In this document: piece by piece, positions 3,355-50,640 of the stretch
How the letters are laid out: every line of letters begins with the position of its first letter
How positions within the stretch are numbered: position 1 is the stretch's first letter
NCBI GenBank assembly: GCA_951799405.1
Contig: OX637342.1
Span: 17,965,298-18,029,297 of the forward strand
Length of the DNA stretch: 64,000 bases
Direction of reading: 5' to 3'
Source of the DNA: Agapetus fuscipes
Taxonomy: Eukaryota > Arthropoda > Insecta > Trichoptera > Glossosomatidae
The notes under the pieces: model-generated
Seen by the model: only the letters and a program-made list of their open reading frames with translations
Told to the model about the DNA's origin: nothing
Database searches by the model: none
Made by a program: the position numbers and the translations under genes

Positions 3355-3644
3355 CGGCGTTTGGTTTGCTAGACTATATATTTTCACATTTAAGAGAGTC
3401 AACCTAACGGCAACCGCTTAATTTAAAGTGGGGGTTTTCCTGTTCTCGAGGGGGTAGGATTTCAACAAGAAAACACCGAAGCGGGAAATTTTCCATAACA
3501 CCCTTGGATTAGTTCAAACCCTAGTCTTCTGCTGTGAATACAAGCGTTCTAAGATCTGAACTAACAATTGGAGATTCAACGATAACTTGTTTCAAAAGTT
3601 AAGTGTATGCATAAATCTATAAATATCGTAGATTGAGGCCATTC

Positions 3645-3897
3645 CTTGACTTATAGGTTGGTATGAGGCTGACCACCCATACTGTAAAAAATGGTTCACT
3701 TTGCCAATGTCACCCCTGTTTCAAGGAAGGTCGGCAAGAGTTGCAGGGCTTATGTTCATTTGAATATTGGGTTTTTTTATATTGTAGGTCCACATGCGGC
3801 ATGTGTGAGCGCGAAATTACGCGTGTCTGCTTGTGGGAATGCATTTAATATGAATCTCAAATGATACATATCTTTGCAACTTAGATTTAGAGGAAAA
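3645..3897 (+). mobile_element. GATTA repeat, plus strand
   Basis: Member of the most numerous repeat here. The family starts TTCCTTGACTTATAGGTTGG, continues with 'gaccacccatactgtaaaaaatgg', 'ccctgtttcagggaagg' and 'gcatttaatatgaat', and ends in ATCTTTGCAACTTAGATTA followed by GATTA units. It has no terminal inverted repeat and no recognisable protein. The structure fits a SINE without an obvious tRNA head. Confidence 0.85.
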
Positions 3898-4039
3898 TAG
3901 ATATAAGGGAATGTTCTTCAGTACTTTTTTAACTAAATTGATTTCTAGTACTAGAAATCCACGCAATCATACAAATATCAATAAAAAGCTATCACGCAAA
4001 TTAACGCTCACACGGGTTGTTTGAAATCCGAAACATTAA

Positions 4040-4110
4040 TGAGCATACACTCTTGCCGCCAGTCTCCGGAATAGGGGTGGCAATGGCAAAATAAATTACC
4101 CATATTAACA
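4040..4110 (-). mobile_element. Decayed GATTA repeat fragment
   Basis: Only the central 'cttgccg...ggggtggcaatggcaaa' block is recognisable, on the minus strand. Confidence 0.5.
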
Positions 4111-4354
4111 GCTGAGAGATAATCCAGCTATTGCAAGTGTTGTTTATTTGGATTGCTTTGATGCAGAATGCTTAGTTAGTTTTGATGTTCTGATGTGATT
4201 GATATGAAAGCTGTGAACGAAGGAGATTGATCAAGAGAAGTGATTGAAAGCGTGTGATGAAAGTCAAACAAGATTATGTCATGAATGGTAGGAATAATAA
4301 AACGTTTATATCAATTTATAAATTATAATTCTCTTACAAAATAATTGCACTGTC

Positions 4355-4693
4355 CGGATCGATAGCTCAGTTGGTAGAGTGCTTGCATTCCATGCCGTGA
4401 GCTCGGGCTGGAATCCCACCGAGGGTGTCTGAAATGAATTTGCGTTTCTGTGTTTATTTCAAACCCAAAAAAAAAATACCGGCATGGTTTACTCAGCCTT
4501 CACAATAAATGAGTACCAGCTCTCTCGGGAGCTGGGAGACCCCCACTTCAACTGAAGTGGTTGGCGTAAGGCCGGCCTCCTTAACTGTAAAAATATGTAA
4601 GTTCAACTTGCCACATGCGATACCTTCGGGGATAACGCGGCAAGAAGATACACTATATGTGTAGCTTAGTTGTGTCCTTTTTTGCTTGCGGAT
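4355..4693 (+). mobile_element. SINE-B, full-length
   Basis: tRNA-like head with A-box TAGCTCAGTTGGTAGAG and a B-box region GGGCTGGAATCCC, then a body with CACTTCAACTGAAGTGG and a tail ending ACACTATATGTGTAGCTTAG. It is interrupted at its 3' end by the TIR element that follows. Confidence 0.85.
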
Positions 4694-4958
4694 ATATCGC
4701 ACCCTGAGAATGAAAGTGACCTATTTTAAAAAAAATGTAAAATGACTTACATACATAGAATGACTCAAAAAGGTACAATCTATTGCACTTTTATTAAAAG
4801 ACAAAGAGACCGAAGTATGCCTCTATCACTCTTTGACCATAAATAATCTGTTTTTAAATATAGGTGTAATAGAGGGTACCTTTTTGAGTCATTCTATGTA
4901 TGTAACTCATTTTACCAAAATTTTGGAATAGGTCACTTTCATTCTCAAGGTGCGATAT
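4694..4958. mobile_element. Small TIR element (MITE-like), 265 bp
   Basis: Inverted terminal repeats of roughly 80 bp start ATATCGCACCCTGAGAATGA and end with the complement. The centre holds no frame. It lies directly after SINE-B. Confidence 0.75.
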
Positions 4959-10787: not shown

Positions 10788-11080
10788 ATGATGCGCTGTT
10801 TTTGTATAAATCACACTTCAAGAGCCCTCTGCGAGCCTGGTTGTCGCTATAGAAAGCGCCTTCTCAAGCAAAATTCTCAAGCAAAGCCCAGTTGCTGTAA
10901 GGCTGGATGTACCTTTGGTGACCGGTGTTTGGTAAATATATATATTTTTTTTAAACTAGCGAAGAGGATATTTGAAAATATAAATGGTATATTTTTTGAG
11001 CTCCGCCGGGATTCCAATCCACAACCTTCCATTTACGAATCTGAAGCGTTACCACCAGACTAGGGACCGGTCAAATATAT
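10788..11080 (-). mobile_element. SINE-A, minus strand
   Basis: Tail first (GCGCTGTTTTTGTATAAATC), then the CAGTTGCTGTAAGGCTGGAT body and tRNA-like head ending GGACCGGTCAA. The 5S-like part is missing. Confidence 0.85.
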
Positions 11081-11449: not shown

Positions 11450-11571
11450 CACCGCGTGTCGTTGGCATCTTGGACCGGTCCGTAGTCCAGTGGCAACACT
11501 TCGGACTCGTAAATGGAAGGTTGTGGATTCGGATCCCAGCGGAGCACAAAAATATCTCGTACCATTTATAT
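11450..11571 (+). mobile_element. SINE-A 5' part, interrupted by LTR element
   Basis: Starts with the last 18 bases of a 5S rRNA-like sequence (CACCGCGTGTCGTTGGCA), then TCTTGG and the tRNA-like module. It is cut after ACCATTTATAT by the LTR at 11572 and resumes at 14636. The same 5S/SINE-A junction appears at 32000-32040. Confidence 0.85.
11568..11571. repeat. Target-site duplication, left copy (ATAT)
   Basis: ATAT directly precedes the LTR terminus TGTTACG and is repeated at 14636-14639. Uninterrupted SINE-A copies read ACCATTTATATTTTC-like here, confirming insertion. Confidence 0.85.
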
Positions 11572-12024
11572 TGTTACGTTTTTCCTGGGTTCTTTTAATT
11601 AAAACACAAGTTTAACACAAGTTAGCCATACAGTTTATTTACACAGACTTTCTTACAATAGATTTATTTTAACAGACTTATTCTAACAGATTTATTTTAA
11701 CACACTTATTTATTTCGTACAGATTACATTTATTTTACACCATATTGGTCGCCCTGGCAACTAGATACTCCTCTGTGTGAGTGCTTCGAAGACTGACTCG
11801 CTTCAGCCCATTGTCGCCCTTCTTATAGCGGAACCTAGGGGCCATTCCAGCCTGCCCTAGAAACTTCCACTACCACAGTTGTATAGACGATTCTGGACAT
11901 ATTTATTTCATGAAGAGTCCATTTCCTACCTACATACACACCTTACAATTACAATCGTCTGGGCCAGAACATTCTCTCAAAACACACGTACACCAATAAA
12001 CATCTACCAGTGTATTTCGTTACA
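11572..12024 (-). repeat. LTR of the DEK element (3' LTR in element orientation)
   Basis: 453 bp with TG...CA ends. I find no difference from 14183-14635. It carries the minus-strand words CTGGCCCAGACGATTGTAAT and GCGACAATGGGCTGAAGCGA. Promoter and polyadenylation signals of the element would be here. Confidence 0.9.
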
Positions 12025-12037
12025 TTATCCCCCCCTT
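12025..12037 (-). promoter_or_regulatory. Polypurine tract candidate
   Basis: On the minus strand AAGGGGGGGATAA sits directly before the 3' LTR, where plus-strand DNA priming is expected in LTR elements. Confidence 0.75.
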
Positions 12038-12062
12038 AGACTGTTCCGCCCCGGAACAGTCT
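12038..12062. repeat. 10-bp hairpin next to the polypurine tract
   Basis: AGACTGTTCC and GGAACAGTCT are exact complements with loop GCCCC. It lies between the stop codon at 12068 and the purine tract. Confidence 0.8.
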
Positions 12063-12067
12063 TTTCT

Positions 12068-13732
12068 TTAAGAAGGTACGGGCAGTTTGACCCACAGTTG
12101 CATCCAGTGGTCAGGAAAAATGACGTTCCACGGTATTTTTCCCTTAGGGTTTTGCCCGTCATTGCTGGCTGGTGTGGGGGGGGGGTGCTTTCCTCTTGGC
12201 GGCCGGCATGGGCGCCTTTCCTTGGCTGGGGGCACCGCTTTGCGTCCCCGGGCGGCCACCGCTCCTAGGCCCCGCTTGCTCGCCGGCGTCAAAGGATCAG
12301 AATCCTTGGTCGTCGGAGCCGCTCTCCTGCTCGGAAGCGAAGTTCTCACTCTCGCTCTCGTCCTCTGACTCGCTGGGTTGCTTCCTGCCGCGCCATGCTT
12401 GGGTCGTCCCTTCTGCTTGCTCTGCTTGGCTGAGCCCCTGCGGGCGGGGGCGCGGCGCTTGCGGGAGGGAGCGCCCCCCTTCCTCACTGACGGGTCAAAG
12501 TCAGAGTCCGCCTCCTGTCCGGAGCCACTCGGGTTGTACGAGCCATCTAAATCCCCTATATCATCCCTGCTGACTTTGGGTCCCCGCACTTTGGTTTCCG
12601 GATCTGTTTCATACTCCTCGTTAGAGTAACCTCTCTTGACAATAGCAGCAGCGGACCTTCTGGGCCTGCCTCCCGTGGCCTCGCCGCGGTCAGTCACCGG
12701 CCTCTCCTTCATCAGCCCCCTGGCGTGCGAGGAGACCTGCTTTGGCAGCAGCAGGAAGCCCACCACCCTGCTGACCAGCTCCGTGGGCGCGCCCCTCTTG
12801 TCCAAGCCCAGCTTCTCGCACAGCGTCCGCAGCTGCTTGGGCTCCAGCTTCTGCACCTCCTCCAGCTTGGCCTTGTGCTCAGGCGTGTCCTTCTCAAACT
12901 CGTAGCCCTTGAACTTCTTTTTGTTGCGCTTGATGAGGTTCGTGCGGCACAATTGATTGTACAGGAACTTGAGGTCCTCCATCTTGAACCTGGAGATGGC
13001 CACCTCCACGTCGGGGATGTGGTCGATGGGGATGCCCCGGCCCGCGGGCACGGGCACCGGCGGCTCCACGGCCTTCTTCTTCTTGGCAGCCTCCTCCACG
13101 GCCTCCTCCGCCTTCTTCTTGGGCGCGGGCTTCTTCTTCACACTGTTGGCCTTCTTGGCCTTGCCCTTCTTGTCCTTGGCGTCCTCATCCTCCTCCTTGG
13201 CGTCCGTCTCCTCCTTCGCATCCTTGTCAGCCTTCACCTCGGCCGAGTCACTCTTGCCGTTTTCAGCCGACTTGACATCATCTTTGTCATCTTTGCTGTC
13301 AGCTGCGTCCTCAGCCTTGGGCTGGCCGTTGTTTTTGGCCTTCAGGTCTCCCTTCCCCAACTTCTGAGATGACTCATCCTCAGTTGACATATCGGCCTTT
13401 TTGTCATCCTGATTATCACTGAATTTTACACTATCAGTGTCCACCGACATTTTTAAGGCTAGGTTTTTAGCCATCTCCTCCTTCCAACCAGCTAGGTCTT
13501 CCCTCAAGCTCTTGAAGTTGGCAGCCATCTTTGTTTTAAACTCTTCCACGGCTCGCTCGCGGTCCCCTCCAGACGCCATGACAAAATATGCCGGGTCTTC
13601 GCCTGACTGTTCCAAGGCCTCCATGAGGCGTGCCTGTAAGGCCGCCTTCCCTCCTGAGGTCTCCAGGTCCCTCTCCAGAAGCTCATTCTTAAGCTCATAG
13701 ACTTTGAGGTCCTTGATGTTCACCTTAGCCAT
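12068..13732 (-). CDS. Gag-like SAP domain fused to DEK homologue
   Basis: 554 residues, ATG at 13732, TAA at 12068-12070. Residues 4-45 form a SAP-type helix-turn-helix (LKVYELKNELLERDLETSGG), followed by EDPAYF and a probable coiled coil (60-94); this arrangement resembles the N-terminus of some arthropod Gypsy Gag proteins. Met95 (context AAAAATGTCG) is probably the original DEK start. An acidic/lysine-rich linker (100-225) leads to the conserved DEK core (235-335): PDVEVAISRFKMEDLK, FKGYEFEKDTPEHKAKLEE, and a second SAP-like part with LGLDKRGAPTELVSRVVGF. DEK is a chromatin and DNA-structure binding nuclear protein. AT-hook-like GRPRR (355-359) and GRPK (442-445) follow. The human-type C-terminal DEK domain is absent. 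From about residue 447 the frame seems shifted: an acidic tail is open in another frame. No introns; GC-rich like host exons. A shorter product starting at Met95 is possible. Confidence 0.85.
   Translation of the reverse strand: MAKVNIKDLKVYELKNELLERDLETSGGKAALQARLMEALEQSGEDPAYFVMASGGDRERAVEEFKTKMAANFKSLREDLAGWKEEMAKNLALKMSVDTDSVKFSDNQDDKKADMSTEDESSQKLGKGDLKAKNNGQPKAEDAADSKDDKDDVKSAENGKSDSAEVKADKDAKEETDAKEEDEDAKDKKGKAKKANSVKKKPAPKKKAEEAVEEAAKKKKAVEPPVPVPAGRGIPIDHIPDVEVAISRFKMEDLKFLYNQLCRTNLIKRNKKKFKGYEFEKDTPEHKAKLEEVQKLEPKQLRTLCEKLGLDKRGAPTELVSRVVGFLLLPKQVSSHARGLMKERPVTDRGEATGGRPRRSAAAIVKRGYSNEEYETDPETKVRGPKVSRDDIGDLDGSYNPSGSGQEADSDFDPSVRKGGAPSRKRRAPARRGSAKQSKQKGRPKHGAAGSNPASQRTRARVRTSLPSRRAAPTTKDSDPLTPASKRGLGAVAARGRKAVPPAKERRPCRPPRGKHPPPTPASNDGQNPKGKIPWNVIFPDHWMQLWVKLPVPS
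12297..12393 (-). pseudogene. Out-of-frame acidic DEK tail
   Basis: In a different minus-strand frame from the long ORF this segment reads RGRKQPSESEDESESENFAS and on to GSDDQGF before a TGA at 12297-12299. Ser/Glu/Asp-rich tails of this kind are typical of DEK-like proteins, whereas the long ORF reads a basic Arg-rich shadow here. A single-base loss near 12393-12396 would explain the switch. Whether the change arose in the element or is an assembly error cannot be told. Confidence 0.65.
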
Positions 13733-14163
13733 TTTTTATTTTAAGAAACTTCAAAACAAAAATATTTGCAAATTTATTTAATACGGGTTATGAGTTTTAT
13801 ATATAAAGTTATTTTAAATACGTACTTTGGCAAAATAATAATTTATCTAATTATACTGACGGTAGGTAGGTACCGCCTTTTAATATTTATTTTTAAATTT
13901 CAAATAATGATATTAGATAATGATTATTTACTTTGCTTCGTCATCGGCTAATGAGTATTTACAAACACTAACGCAATATTATTAACACGTTATCTATCCA
14001 CACTTCAATCAAATTTTTAGCGGGTAACCACACGATCGTTTTTAATTCAAGTTTAATCAGTTTTATTTAAAACTTTTTTTTTTTATTCATCAGTTTTTAT
14101 TATGTTGTCCACATATATTTTTCAAAAGTCTCAAGCACAGTTTTTACTTGGTACTTGGTTTTA
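13733..14163 (-). other. Leader region of the DEK element
   Basis: AT-rich sequence between the start codon at 13732 and the PBS candidate. It contains no protein frame of note on the element strand. It could be the retroelement leader with packaging signals, or hold part of the captured 5' UTR. Confidence 0.5.
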
Positions 14164-14181
14164 AACTTCACACCGACACCA
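14164..14181 (-). promoter_or_regulatory. Primer-binding-site candidate
   Basis: One base inside the 5' LTR the minus strand reads TGGTGTCGGTGTGAAG, beginning with the TGG that complements a tRNA CCA end. The first bases resemble a Leu-type tRNA complement, but I cannot fix the tRNA. Confidence 0.55.
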
Positions 14182-14182
14182 T

Positions 14183-14635
14183 TGTTACGTTTTTCCTGGG
14201 TTCTTTTAATTAAAACACAAGTTTAACACAAGTTAGCCATACAGTTTATTTACACAGACTTTCTTACAATAGATTTATTTTAACAGACTTATTCTAACAG
14301 ATTTATTTTAACACACTTATTTATTTCGTACAGATTACATTTATTTTACACCATATTGGTCGCCCTGGCAACTAGATACTCCTCTGTGTGAGTGCTTCGA
14401 AGACTGACTCGCTTCAGCCCATTGTCGCCCTTCTTATAGCGGAACCTAGGGGCCATTCCAGCCTGCCCTAGAAACTTCCACTACCACAGTTGTATAGACG
14501 ATTCTGGACATATTTATTTCATGAAGAGTCCATTTCCTACCTACATACACACCTTACAATTACAATCGTCTGGGCCAGAACATTCTCTCAAAACACACGT
14601 ACACCAATAAACATCTACCAGTGTATTTCGTTACA
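14183..14635 (-). repeat. LTR of the DEK element (5' LTR in element orientation)
   Basis: 453 bp, same sequence as 11572-12024 as far as I can read. Transcription of the fusion gene would start here on the minus strand. Confidence 0.9.
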
Positions 14636-14855
14636 ATATTTTGAAATTGCTCTTCGCTGAGTTGAAAAAATCATAAAACCTTTACCAAAGACCGGTCACT
14701 GAAAGGTCCATCCAACCTTAAAACAACTGGATCTTGCTTGAGAATTGGCGCTTTCTACAGCGATGACCAAGCTCGCAGAGGGTTCTTGAGGTGCGATACA
14801 CACAAAAACAGCGCTTACCAAATAAATCATCCTAATATTATTTATTTTTATCAGT
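14636..14855 (+). mobile_element. SINE-A 3' part (continuation after the LTR element)
   Basis: Begins with the second ATAT target-site copy and continues the SINE-A body (GAAATTGCTCTTCGCTGAGT) to the tail GCGCTTACCAAATAAATCAT. Together with 11450-11571 it makes one SINE copy. Confidence 0.9.
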
Positions 14856-18729: not shown

Positions 18730-19572
18730 ACTTACTTTACTTATTCAGCCACTTCTTATCCACTGCTGGACATAGGCCTCCCCCATATCTCTCCAGGCGT
18801 CTCTGTCCTGGGCTCTCTGCATCCAGTCACCAGCATCTCTTTTGATATCATCTGACCATCGTGTAAGAGGTCTTCCTCTTGTTCTTTTGTCTTCACGAGG
18901 TCTCCATTCTACCACTCTTTTCGTCCATCTTTGCTCGCTCAATCTGGCTACATGCCCTGCCCACGACCACTTCTGCTTTGCCACTCTTTTGACTATGTCA
19001 GTAACTCCCGATCTTCTACGTATTTCGGTATTTCGTATCCGATCTGACAGTCTTATGTGTAGCATAGCTCTTTCGTGCTTTCGTTGTGCTACACGGAGTT
19101 TCCTGATAGTCATTTTGGTGAGAGTTAGTGTCTCTGCTCCGTAAGTCATAACTGGCAGGACACACTGGTCGTACATTTTCCGTTTCAGGCATTGGGGGAT
19201 GTTGCTGGTGAAGAACTTCTTAAGACTGCCATAGGCCGCCCATCCTAGAGAGATCCTCCTTTGCAGTTCAATCGTTTGGTTGTCTCTAGAAACTGCAATA
19301 TTATGACCAAGGTATTTATAATCATGGACCTCTTCTATTGGTCGGCTGTCGATGACTATCTTACCACCCAGGACGAGATTTGTCATGATTTTTGTTTTTT
19401 CGCCGTTGATAAGGAGCCCCACTTTTTTTGTCTCCGTAACGAGCTCTTCTAGCATTTCACGGGCGTCTTCCAGATCTTCGGATATTAGAACAATATCATC
19501 CGCAAATCTCAGATTGTTCAAGTAAACTCCATCTACTTTGATACCTTTTTCTTCCCTATATTTTCTTAACTA
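18730..19572 (-). mobile_element. RTE-clade LINE, 5'-truncated
   Basis: A 258-codon minus-strand frame holds the end of an RTE-type reverse transcriptase: GVYLNNLRFADDIVLISEDL with the catalytic ADD, then DYKYLGHNIA, YGAETLTLTKMT, WAGHVARLSEQRWTKRVVEW and the terminal EAYVQQWIRSG. Homology extends upstream to KYREEKGIKVDG (about 19570) and then stops. The frame is open throughout, so the copy is fairly young. The rest of ORF2, including the endonuclease, is missing. Confidence 0.85.
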
Positions 19573-49797: not shown

Positions 49798-50640
49798 CAA
49801 AATTTATATAGCGCCTTTTATGACAGTGCGTCACTGCAAAGGCGCTTGTCCATATGATTGGACGAAGAGGTGAGTCTTGAGACGTCTTTTAAATCAGTCT
49901 CTCCAAATCCAGTTCCCTCAGTGAGGCGGGAATAGCGTTCCAAGTCATTGGAGCGGCCGCCTTGAATGCCCTGTCTCCAAAAACAGTGCGGGGCCTTCTT
50001 GCAGGGTTGTCCAGGCAGCTGCTTCTTGATGCAGCTGACCTCAGTGTTTGTCCGCGCGAGGTTGTAGTTGCTGGAGACACCAGCTCTATCAGGTACCCTG
50101 GAGCATTCCCACATAGTGCTTTAAAGGTGAGCAAGCCGAGTTTGAGGGTGATCCTCTCAGGGATTTTCAGCCAATGCAGAGATTGAAGGTGAGGAGGGAT
50201 GTAGCAGGGCTTTGCAGCCCCATATAGCTGTAGCGTTCTGTAGCGATTGAAGCCTATTGAGTTGATTTTTGGGCTGGCCAGCATATATCGCATTGCAGTA
50301 GTCGAGTCTGGCCACTACACAAGAATTCACAATCGCCTTTGTAGCACTTCTAGGCAGACTTTTAACCACAGTCTTAATTTGACGGAAAGCAAAGAAACCG
50401 GATCTGACAGTATTTGATCCTTGATTATCCAGTGTCAGGTGTTGGTCAATGCAAACTCCAAGAAGTTTAATGCTGATGGACGGGTTGACGTTTACTTCAC
50501 AGATTCTGATGGGCGACAAGTCAAGAAGTTCCTGGCGCTTCTTAGTCATTGCACGCAAGATTTCTGTTTTATCTGGGTTCAAGACTAACTTGTTTGCAGT
50601 CATCCAGCGCCCCACGTCCTAAATACATTCCCCGATTGTC
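49798..50640 (-). mobile_element. CR1/Rex1-like LINE, longest copy
   Basis: Two overlapping minus-strand frames give one reverse-transcriptase end with a frameshift near 50160-50290. Upstream: MTANKLVLNPDKTEILRAM, SIKLLGVCIDQHLTLDNQ, ARLDYCNAIYAGQPKNQLN. Downstream: LQSLHWLKIPERITLKLGLL, TFKALCGNAPGYL, VFGDRAFKAAAPMTWNAIPA. The 3' end has the hairpin AGCGCCTTT ... AAAGGCGCT (49811-49847). Confidence 0.85.

Follow-up and report, generated by a model that had tools for sequence, protein, structure and literature searches.

A non-autonomous LTR retrotransposon family of Agapetus fuscipes, very probably made by capture of host DEK mRNA

Long terminal repeat (LTR) elements of the TRIM, LARD and BARE-2 type keep the LTRs, the primer-binding site (PBS) and the polypurine tract (PPT), lack the enzymes, and encode nothing or remnants of Gag and pol. 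In retroviral gag-onc transduction, a Gag start is fused to a host cDNA, pol is lost and a helper is needed. Retrotransposons with captured DNA methyltransferases have kept pol and added the gene (not confirmed in the literature searched). The maize LTR element Bs1 is said to be without pol and to carry its gene pieces in spliced form. As described in two articles, Bs1 has host gene pieces in a hybrid frame (PMC13317346, PMC5408686); they come from three genes, none of which is present as a full-length open reading frame (ORF) (PMC13317346). In animals, according to a review, LTR-mediated retroposition was reported by Tan and coworkers to take place in virus-like particles by template switching, with element RNA and host mRNA as the two templates, and the resulting retrocopies gain LTRs, so that they can be transcribed and move again (PMC5408686). 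Here we describe an LTR element whose single frame joins a Gag start to a cDNA of the host chromatin gene DEK. It lies at 11572-14635 of a 64,000-nucleotide stretch of the Agapetus fuscipes genome (GCA_951799405.1, contig OX637342.1, positions 17,965,298 to 18,029,297), hereafter the window.

The DEK element resembles the TRIM, LARD and BARE-2 types in lacking enzymes and retaining LTRs, a PBS-like sequence and a PPT, but it encodes a Gag-host fusion. With gag-onc transduction it shares the Gag start, the host cDNA, the loss of pol and the need of a helper (here inferred), but no env or retrovirus was seen here and the family is one of germline retrotransposons. As in the methyltransferase-carrying elements, a chromatin-acting host gene is kept by a retroelement; here, however, DEK stands in place of most of Gag and the whole of pol. 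Bs1 is likewise an LTR element carrying host gene pieces, whereas the present case involves one chromatin gene, in frame with the Gag start, at about 270-290 sites in an animal. The review of animal LTR-mediated retroposition describes retrocopies, whereas a high-copy family with a Gag-fusion protein is found here. No DEK-carrying or macro-domain-carrying LTR element was found in the searched part of the open-licence PMC literature. Host-mRNA capture by LTR elements is thus already known, and a Gag-chromatin-protein fusion at hundreds of animal sites is, as far as found, a new variant. One genome displays the whole chain: the intron-bearing source gene, the donor Gag family, a sister fusion family, the two junctions and the hundreds of sites, and almost every copy scored or read has an open frame. 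The case also shows that an element can succeed with a host gene as its sole remaining protein.

The window element is on the minus strand and runs 5' LTR, PBS-like sequence, leader, frame, tail, purine tract, 3' LTR. Its parts are as follows (window coordinates):

11568..11571, no strand: left target-site duplication ATAT, a matching 4-bp flank
11572..12024, minus: 3' LTR of 453 bp, TGTAAC...GTAACA, 0 differences from the right LTR
12025..12037, minus: PPT AAGGGGGGGATAA, directly inside the 3' LTR; the LTR/PPT edge pattern recurs genome-wide
12038..12165, minus: 3' tail; over 131 aligned columns it is 68.7% identical (E 7e-16) to its homologue, the CCCH-finger end of gag-macro element L076
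12068..13732, minus: Gag-DEK fusion frame, an ORF of 554 codons
12166..13457, minus: captured DEK cDNA, host exons 1-10 joined, at most 3 nt of exon 11 and about 7 nt of 5' untranslated region (UTR); 1213/1280 aligned bases identical to the host gene
12734..13048, minus: DEK core (SAF/SAP-box region), aa 229-333, matching PDB 2jx3 (E 2.2e-12)
13458..13732, minus: Gag N-terminus, first ~92 codons, with a SAP domain at aa 6-41 (PF02037, 39 bits, and identity to SAP-gag places)
13733..14182, minus: 5' leader of 450 nt, of which ~175 nt beside the start codon are common to SAP-gag elements
14166..14181, minus: PBS-like sequence TGGTGTCGGTGTGAAG, one base inside the 5' LTR, assigned by sequence position
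14183..14635, minus: 5' LTR of 453 bp, identical to the left LTR
14636..14639, no strand: right target-site duplication ATAT, a matching 4-bp flank

An earlier note, made from the letters of the window alone, had claimed two identical 453-bp LTRs, ATAT on both sides and well-placed PBS-like and purine-tract signals, all of which hold: the LTRs show 0 differences and ATAT stands directly outside both LTR ends. The LTRs are direct repeats with TG...CA-type ends, and complete copies elsewhere keep both the PBS-like sequence and the PPT in place with small variants. The note had also read the 554-codon frame as having a DEK core. The core does match solved DEK structures (2jx3 as listed; longer DEK chains, E 1.4e-13), but the frame is not DEK alone, residues 1 to ~92 being a Gag start, not DEK. 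The SAP domain there scores well above its cut-off of 23.9 bits. Only this SAP start of Gag is kept in the window element; Ty3_capsid falls below its cut-off and pol is absent. The frame has the DEK core and is not a complete DEK protein, as domain search and host-gene comparison found no DEK C-terminal domain (DEK_C) in it. Structure prediction of the fusion gave a mean pLDDT (predicted local distance difference test) of 50, a low overall confidence, with helices mainly in the Gag-start and core regions. In the window copy, one surplus C in a C-run near the frame end shifts the reading of the last ~35 codons. This run has ten C in 4 of the 39 copies read and nine in 31 of them; the 9-C copies mostly continue to ...NSLRGG inside the PPT. 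The RNA fold of the 3' tail is mildly more stable than that of shuffled sequences (z -2.15; 7/200 shuffles at least as stable). A perfect hairpin, GACTGTTCC-GGGGC-GGAACAGTC, was also noticed just before the PPT at 12039-12061(-).

The window element is a member of a family with about 270-290 exact-pattern sites, in which the Gag start, spliced DEK exons 1-10, the 3' tail and the PPT stand between LTRs in one frame. The spliced DEK exon 6/7 junction occurs exactly 269 times in the 618-Mb genome and the LTR/PPT edge 290 times, with 0 occurrences of the reversed control in each case. The captured copy of the earlier note is confirmed as a capture but is not single. A protein search, in which the best 78 of 2126 candidate places were scored, returned copies of 94-100% identity, 77 of them without a stop. 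Twenty LTR/PPT edges on C1-C3 were chosen that, as judged by eye, had no scored DEK match nearby; all 20 adjoin DEK sequence, one of them (L063) partly.

In the LTR search, the best 40 of 1088 candidates were scored and 41 matches listed; 40 were full-length and near-identical, on many contigs, and the listed matches were often 2.5-2.9 kb apart. Twenty places were taken from this search for close reading. They comprise 15 loci with two complete LTRs, among them one tandem that has three LTRs around two inner parts, 2 solo LTRs and 3 truncated or rearranged copies; as they were chosen by LTR similarity, the sample favours young copies. Identical 4-bp flanks were present at 20 of 21 places (the window plus these 20), the exception being the truncated copy L047; ten were ATAT, three GTAT, three ATAC, and ATAA, ATAG, TTAT and GTAA occurred once each. 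LTR pairs showed 0 differences in 16 of 17 units and 1 in the remaining unit. All 19 intact-start units (LTR-chosen, with the window and both L039 units included) have open frames of 550-668 codons, and L049 is a short deletion derivative. L049, L032 and L034 (internal deletions) and one of the two L039 units were excluded from the LTR-pair, fixed-difference, ORF-indel and codon counts.

Several copies are rearranged. L039 (G000:C26:9182435-9189954) is a tandem of three LTRs and two inner DEK parts within one outer duplication (ATAG). L032, L033, L034 and L042 have in-frame tandem duplications of a basic unit of ~100 codons at the DEK C-terminal end, and L032 and L034 are also without part of the DEK core and the sequence after it. 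L038 has a nested insertion of ~1.4 kb in its leader (about 3394-4826), with terminal inverted repeats and a 233-aa frame, which by eye resembles a Harbinger-type DNA transposon.

The insert is derived from spliced mRNA of an identified host gene, DEK. As the earlier note had proposed to look for, an unlinked, intron-containing DEK is present: it lies on a contig other than the element's, from C11:960416 down to 946574, with 12 coding exons found (656 codons) and exon borders with GT donors and AG acceptors. Since a donor site follows the last annotated exon, a terminal exon may be missing. Of three DEK_C (PF08766) matches in the genome, that on C11, with 51 residues equal to those of Eumeta DEK, corresponds to the C-terminal exon of host DEK. 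Among named DEKs, the closest come from Lepidoptera (Scirpophaga, Eumeta, Pieris, Phthorimaea, Danaus); core identity is 64-65% between the host and these, versus 80-89% among the lepidopteran proteins themselves. By these values the host would fall outside that set of species, perhaps on an early branch of Lepidoptera or in a group closely related to them.

The element aligns in order to host exons 1-10, and the 9 introns (8773 bp) are absent. Seven of the nine exon joins are directly readable and exact by eye, and joins 4/5 and 8/9 lie inside deletions. The window copy is 94.8% identical to host DEK over the aligned bases. The element has lost part of the acidic tract (exons 4-5), four residues of the core, and 40 nt where exons 8 and 9 meet. 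The fusion includes the DEK start codon and the ~7 bases of 5'UTR before it, and the 3' break of DEK is no more than 3 nt into exon 11, where the mRNA and the element have CACACCAGCCA in common. The missing introns, exact joins, 5'UTR piece and shared sequence at the break are hallmarks of reverse transcription of a spliced mRNA with two template switches, the process described for LTR-mediated retroposition (PMC5408686). That DEK was captured is, in our judgement, virtually certain, and the earlier note's description of an enzyme-free element carrying a host chromatin-gene cDNA is upheld. The same note had named divergent LTRs around an ordinary Gypsy gene as one finding that would overturn it; the LTRs are identical and the frame is a Gag-DEK fusion. 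An ordinary Gypsy gene was rejected on the 92% amino-acid identity of the DEK core to host DEK, and a chance LTR pair was rejected too.

The source of the Gag start was sought in a database search with residues 1-95, which gave one relative, a 349-aa SAP-domain protein. A genome search with that protein (best 116 of 1738 candidates scored) gave 146 matches. Twenty gag starts and three longer loci were examined as relatives, with an overlap of three places between the two sets. The Gag start is common to all 20 places at 59-75% identity over up to 95 aa, with near-identity in roughly the first 58 aa; around the start codon, 84-93% of the DNA is shared, again with 20/20 places. One longer locus, L078, has a SAP domain, Retrotrans_gag (25.0 bits; cut-off 24.1) and a CCHC knuckle (25.0; 20.8), and its second frame encodes an aspartyl protease (PF13975, 44.8 bits; cut-off 28.2); L077 has the same protease frame. 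Judged by Gag homology, the DEK element is kin to Ty3/Gypsy elements through L078, which has the same Gag start.

A second gag-fusion family was found at L076 (G000:C20:12838744-12842715), one frame of at least 827 codons in the order SAP, Gag-like middle, coiled coil, macro-like domain and CCCH finger. Its Gag-like middle has a CCHC match of 18.8 bits, below the cut-off of 20.8, and Retrotrans_gag was not reported there. The macro-like domain matches OARD1/TARG1 macro-domain structures (2l8r, 4j5q; E 3.6e-10) with no Pfam macro match. The CCCH finger (PF00642) scores 21.4 bits with the end alone (cut-off 20.5) and 19.1 in the whole protein, and is like that of CPSF30 (E 0.004). The LTR copies of L076 are 99.8% identical over 482 columns. 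When the best 150 of 1408 candidates for the macro-CCCH end were scored, they were 99-100% identical and without stops, and by our count 130 of the 150 lie in open frames of 760-834 aa. L076 thus represents a second high-copy non-autonomous gag fusion, for which at least 150 near-identical places were counted. The final residues of L076 match the 3' tail of the DEK element, which therefore probably arose on, or recombined with, an element of the L076 kind. This points to a recipient of DEK that was already a non-autonomous gag-fusion element.

Taken as a whole, the DEK elements very probably form a family of non-autonomous LTR retrotransposons that arose when host DEK mRNA was captured. The capture would have begun with element RNA and spliced DEK mRNA packaged together. 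Reverse transcriptase would start on the element 3' tail, switch to the DEK mRNA at the exon 10/11 border, where the two share a short stretch, and return to the Gag region in a second switch immediately ahead of the DEK start codon. In the present cycle, the LTR transcript would be the source of both the Gag-DEK protein and the genome copy, and particles, reverse transcriptase and integrase would be supplied in trans by gag-pol elements. The product would be a SAP/coiled-coil Gag start with the DEK DNA-binding core and no DEK_C.

Copying in trans is quite probable, and L077 and L078 are candidate helpers in the same genome. Three points count against it. Only Gag and protease were seen in the relatives, without reverse transcriptase or integrase, in DNA that ends at about the reverse transcriptase start. 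Among the relatives examined, there is no good match to the LTR of the DEK element; the best, a weak one in L076, is 64% over 129 columns. In addition, 20 of the 23 relative pieces extend only about 0.9 kb upstream of gag. As an LTR-sharing element was not found and the relatives are without reverse transcriptase in the DNA examined, we can only infer the helper. The parent Gypsy element sought by the earlier note was accordingly recovered in part, as gag-protease relatives with the same Gag start but not as an element sharing the LTR.

Whether the protein matters is less clear, as DEK might be passive filler, with LTRs, leader, PBS, PPT and a packaging signal sufficient for propagation and the frame open through the youth of the copies. 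We regard this as possible though doubtful. Several observations weigh against selection on the frame and favour filler. Amino-acid sites look unconstrained in the 16 ORFs of the young sample, with 21 synonymous changes versus 24.7 expected, 60 non-synonymous versus 54.8, and 1 stop-type versus 2.5 (scored against the column-majority codon, the copies' own frames being open); the synonymous share is thus not above neutral. This sample was LTR-chosen and is skewed to young copies. The tandem duplications and internal deletions in the DEK part of L032, L033, L034 and L042 are tolerated, and nearly identical LTR pairs leave a short time for decay. The indel comparison itself has two weaknesses: some leader patterns overlap and may be alignment artefacts, and the rearranged L032 and L034 are outside the ORF count.

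On the other hand, indel patterns divisible by three make up 6 of 7 in the ORF versus 4 of 25 in the leader (Fisher P 0.0014), and 6 of 6 versus the same 4 of 25 when only the part before the last ~35 codons is counted (Fisher P 0.0003); the single frame-shifting ORF indel is the C-run near the end. Moreover, the capture is old, yet frames are open in 77/78 scored places (a best-scoring sample) and in 19/19 intact-start units. The leader has 233 differences per kb, compared with 53 across the counted ORF as a whole (82 in 1557 bases) and 27 in its core, a contrast that may stem from indel-rich alignment or from recombination and is not taken as evidence here. The frame-preserving indels suggest that the fusion protein matters. 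In our reading of these sequence patterns, selection probably keeps the frame open, or did so until recently, and single residues are little constrained.

Between host DEK and the element, dS (synonymous divergence) is about 0.157 and dN (non-synonymous divergence) 0.031-0.038 (289 codons, five copies). Set against the near-identical LTR pairs, this dS indicates that the capture is far older than the insertions. The element was therefore "very recent", as the earlier note had it, in its insertions but not in its capture. The host-versus-element dN/dS is 0.19-0.24 for the same codons and copies, from two residue ranges that leave out the acidic tract and the last codons; because it is not separable between gene and element, it is not taken as proof of selection in the element.

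An old capture with very young insertions would also fit a capture of DEK in a related species, followed by arrival of the element through horizontal transfer or hybridisation, which we consider rather improbable. In the host frame (exon 4 not counted), 30 synonymous and 18 non-synonymous differences are fixed between the host and 16 copies. Exon 9 is mostly out of frame in the element because of the 40-nt deletion, which a later 1-nt insertion makes good. Read in the host frame, its fixed differences are nevertheless 3 synonymous and 1 non-synonymous, as if they had arisen in a functional gene, but four changes are too few to decide a donor-gene origin. Of the 15 fixed amino-acid differences, polarised with lepidopteran DEK outgroups, 7 could be assigned to the element lineage and 1 to the host, the imbalance that long evolution in the element would produce; another 6 were ambiguous, and one of the 8 labelled element-derived was left out as having no outgroup residue.

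A processed DEK pseudogene made by a long interspersed nuclear element (LINE), with a later LTR insertion, would explain the intronless insert, but its probability is negligible and it was rejected: the insert lacks a poly(A) tail, its DEK part ends within the mRNA and is joined to Gag and to the tail, the spliced junction stands at 269 places, the LTR structure is shared among copies, and matching 4-bp duplications lie outside the LTRs in the examined copies.

On the reading preferred here, capture of DEK mRNA by an LTR element, the fusion protein may have a role in chromatin. Heterochromatin is a main barrier to transposons, and since the Drosophila counterpart of DEK acts in heterochromatin silencing, a test of transposon versus host chromatin becomes possible. 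According to one article, DEK of Drosophila is a binding partner of HP1alpha, and heterochromatin silencing is disturbed when DEK is knocked down (PMC12712427). Tentatively, the Gag-DEK product might bind chromatin to the element's benefit, either as a competitor of host DEK in heterochromatin silencing or as a tether for cDNA. It is also conceivable, if speculative, that the SAP-domain Gag start serves as an adaptor to which non-autonomous elements repeatedly join host nuclear proteins (DEK; TARG1-like macro plus CCCH), each helping its own element past chromatin silencing or repair. If so, these would be retro-transducing parasites evolving weapons from host genes.

Outside the element, imperfect inverted arms of 70-85% complementarity flank it (window 10793-10977 with 14639-14814, and 10993-11078 with 11467-11552); as they stand on both sides, the element sits in or beside other repeats. 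Two open stretches elsewhere in the window, 18745-19569(-) and 50157-50618(-), resemble LINE reverse-transcriptase fragments by eye.

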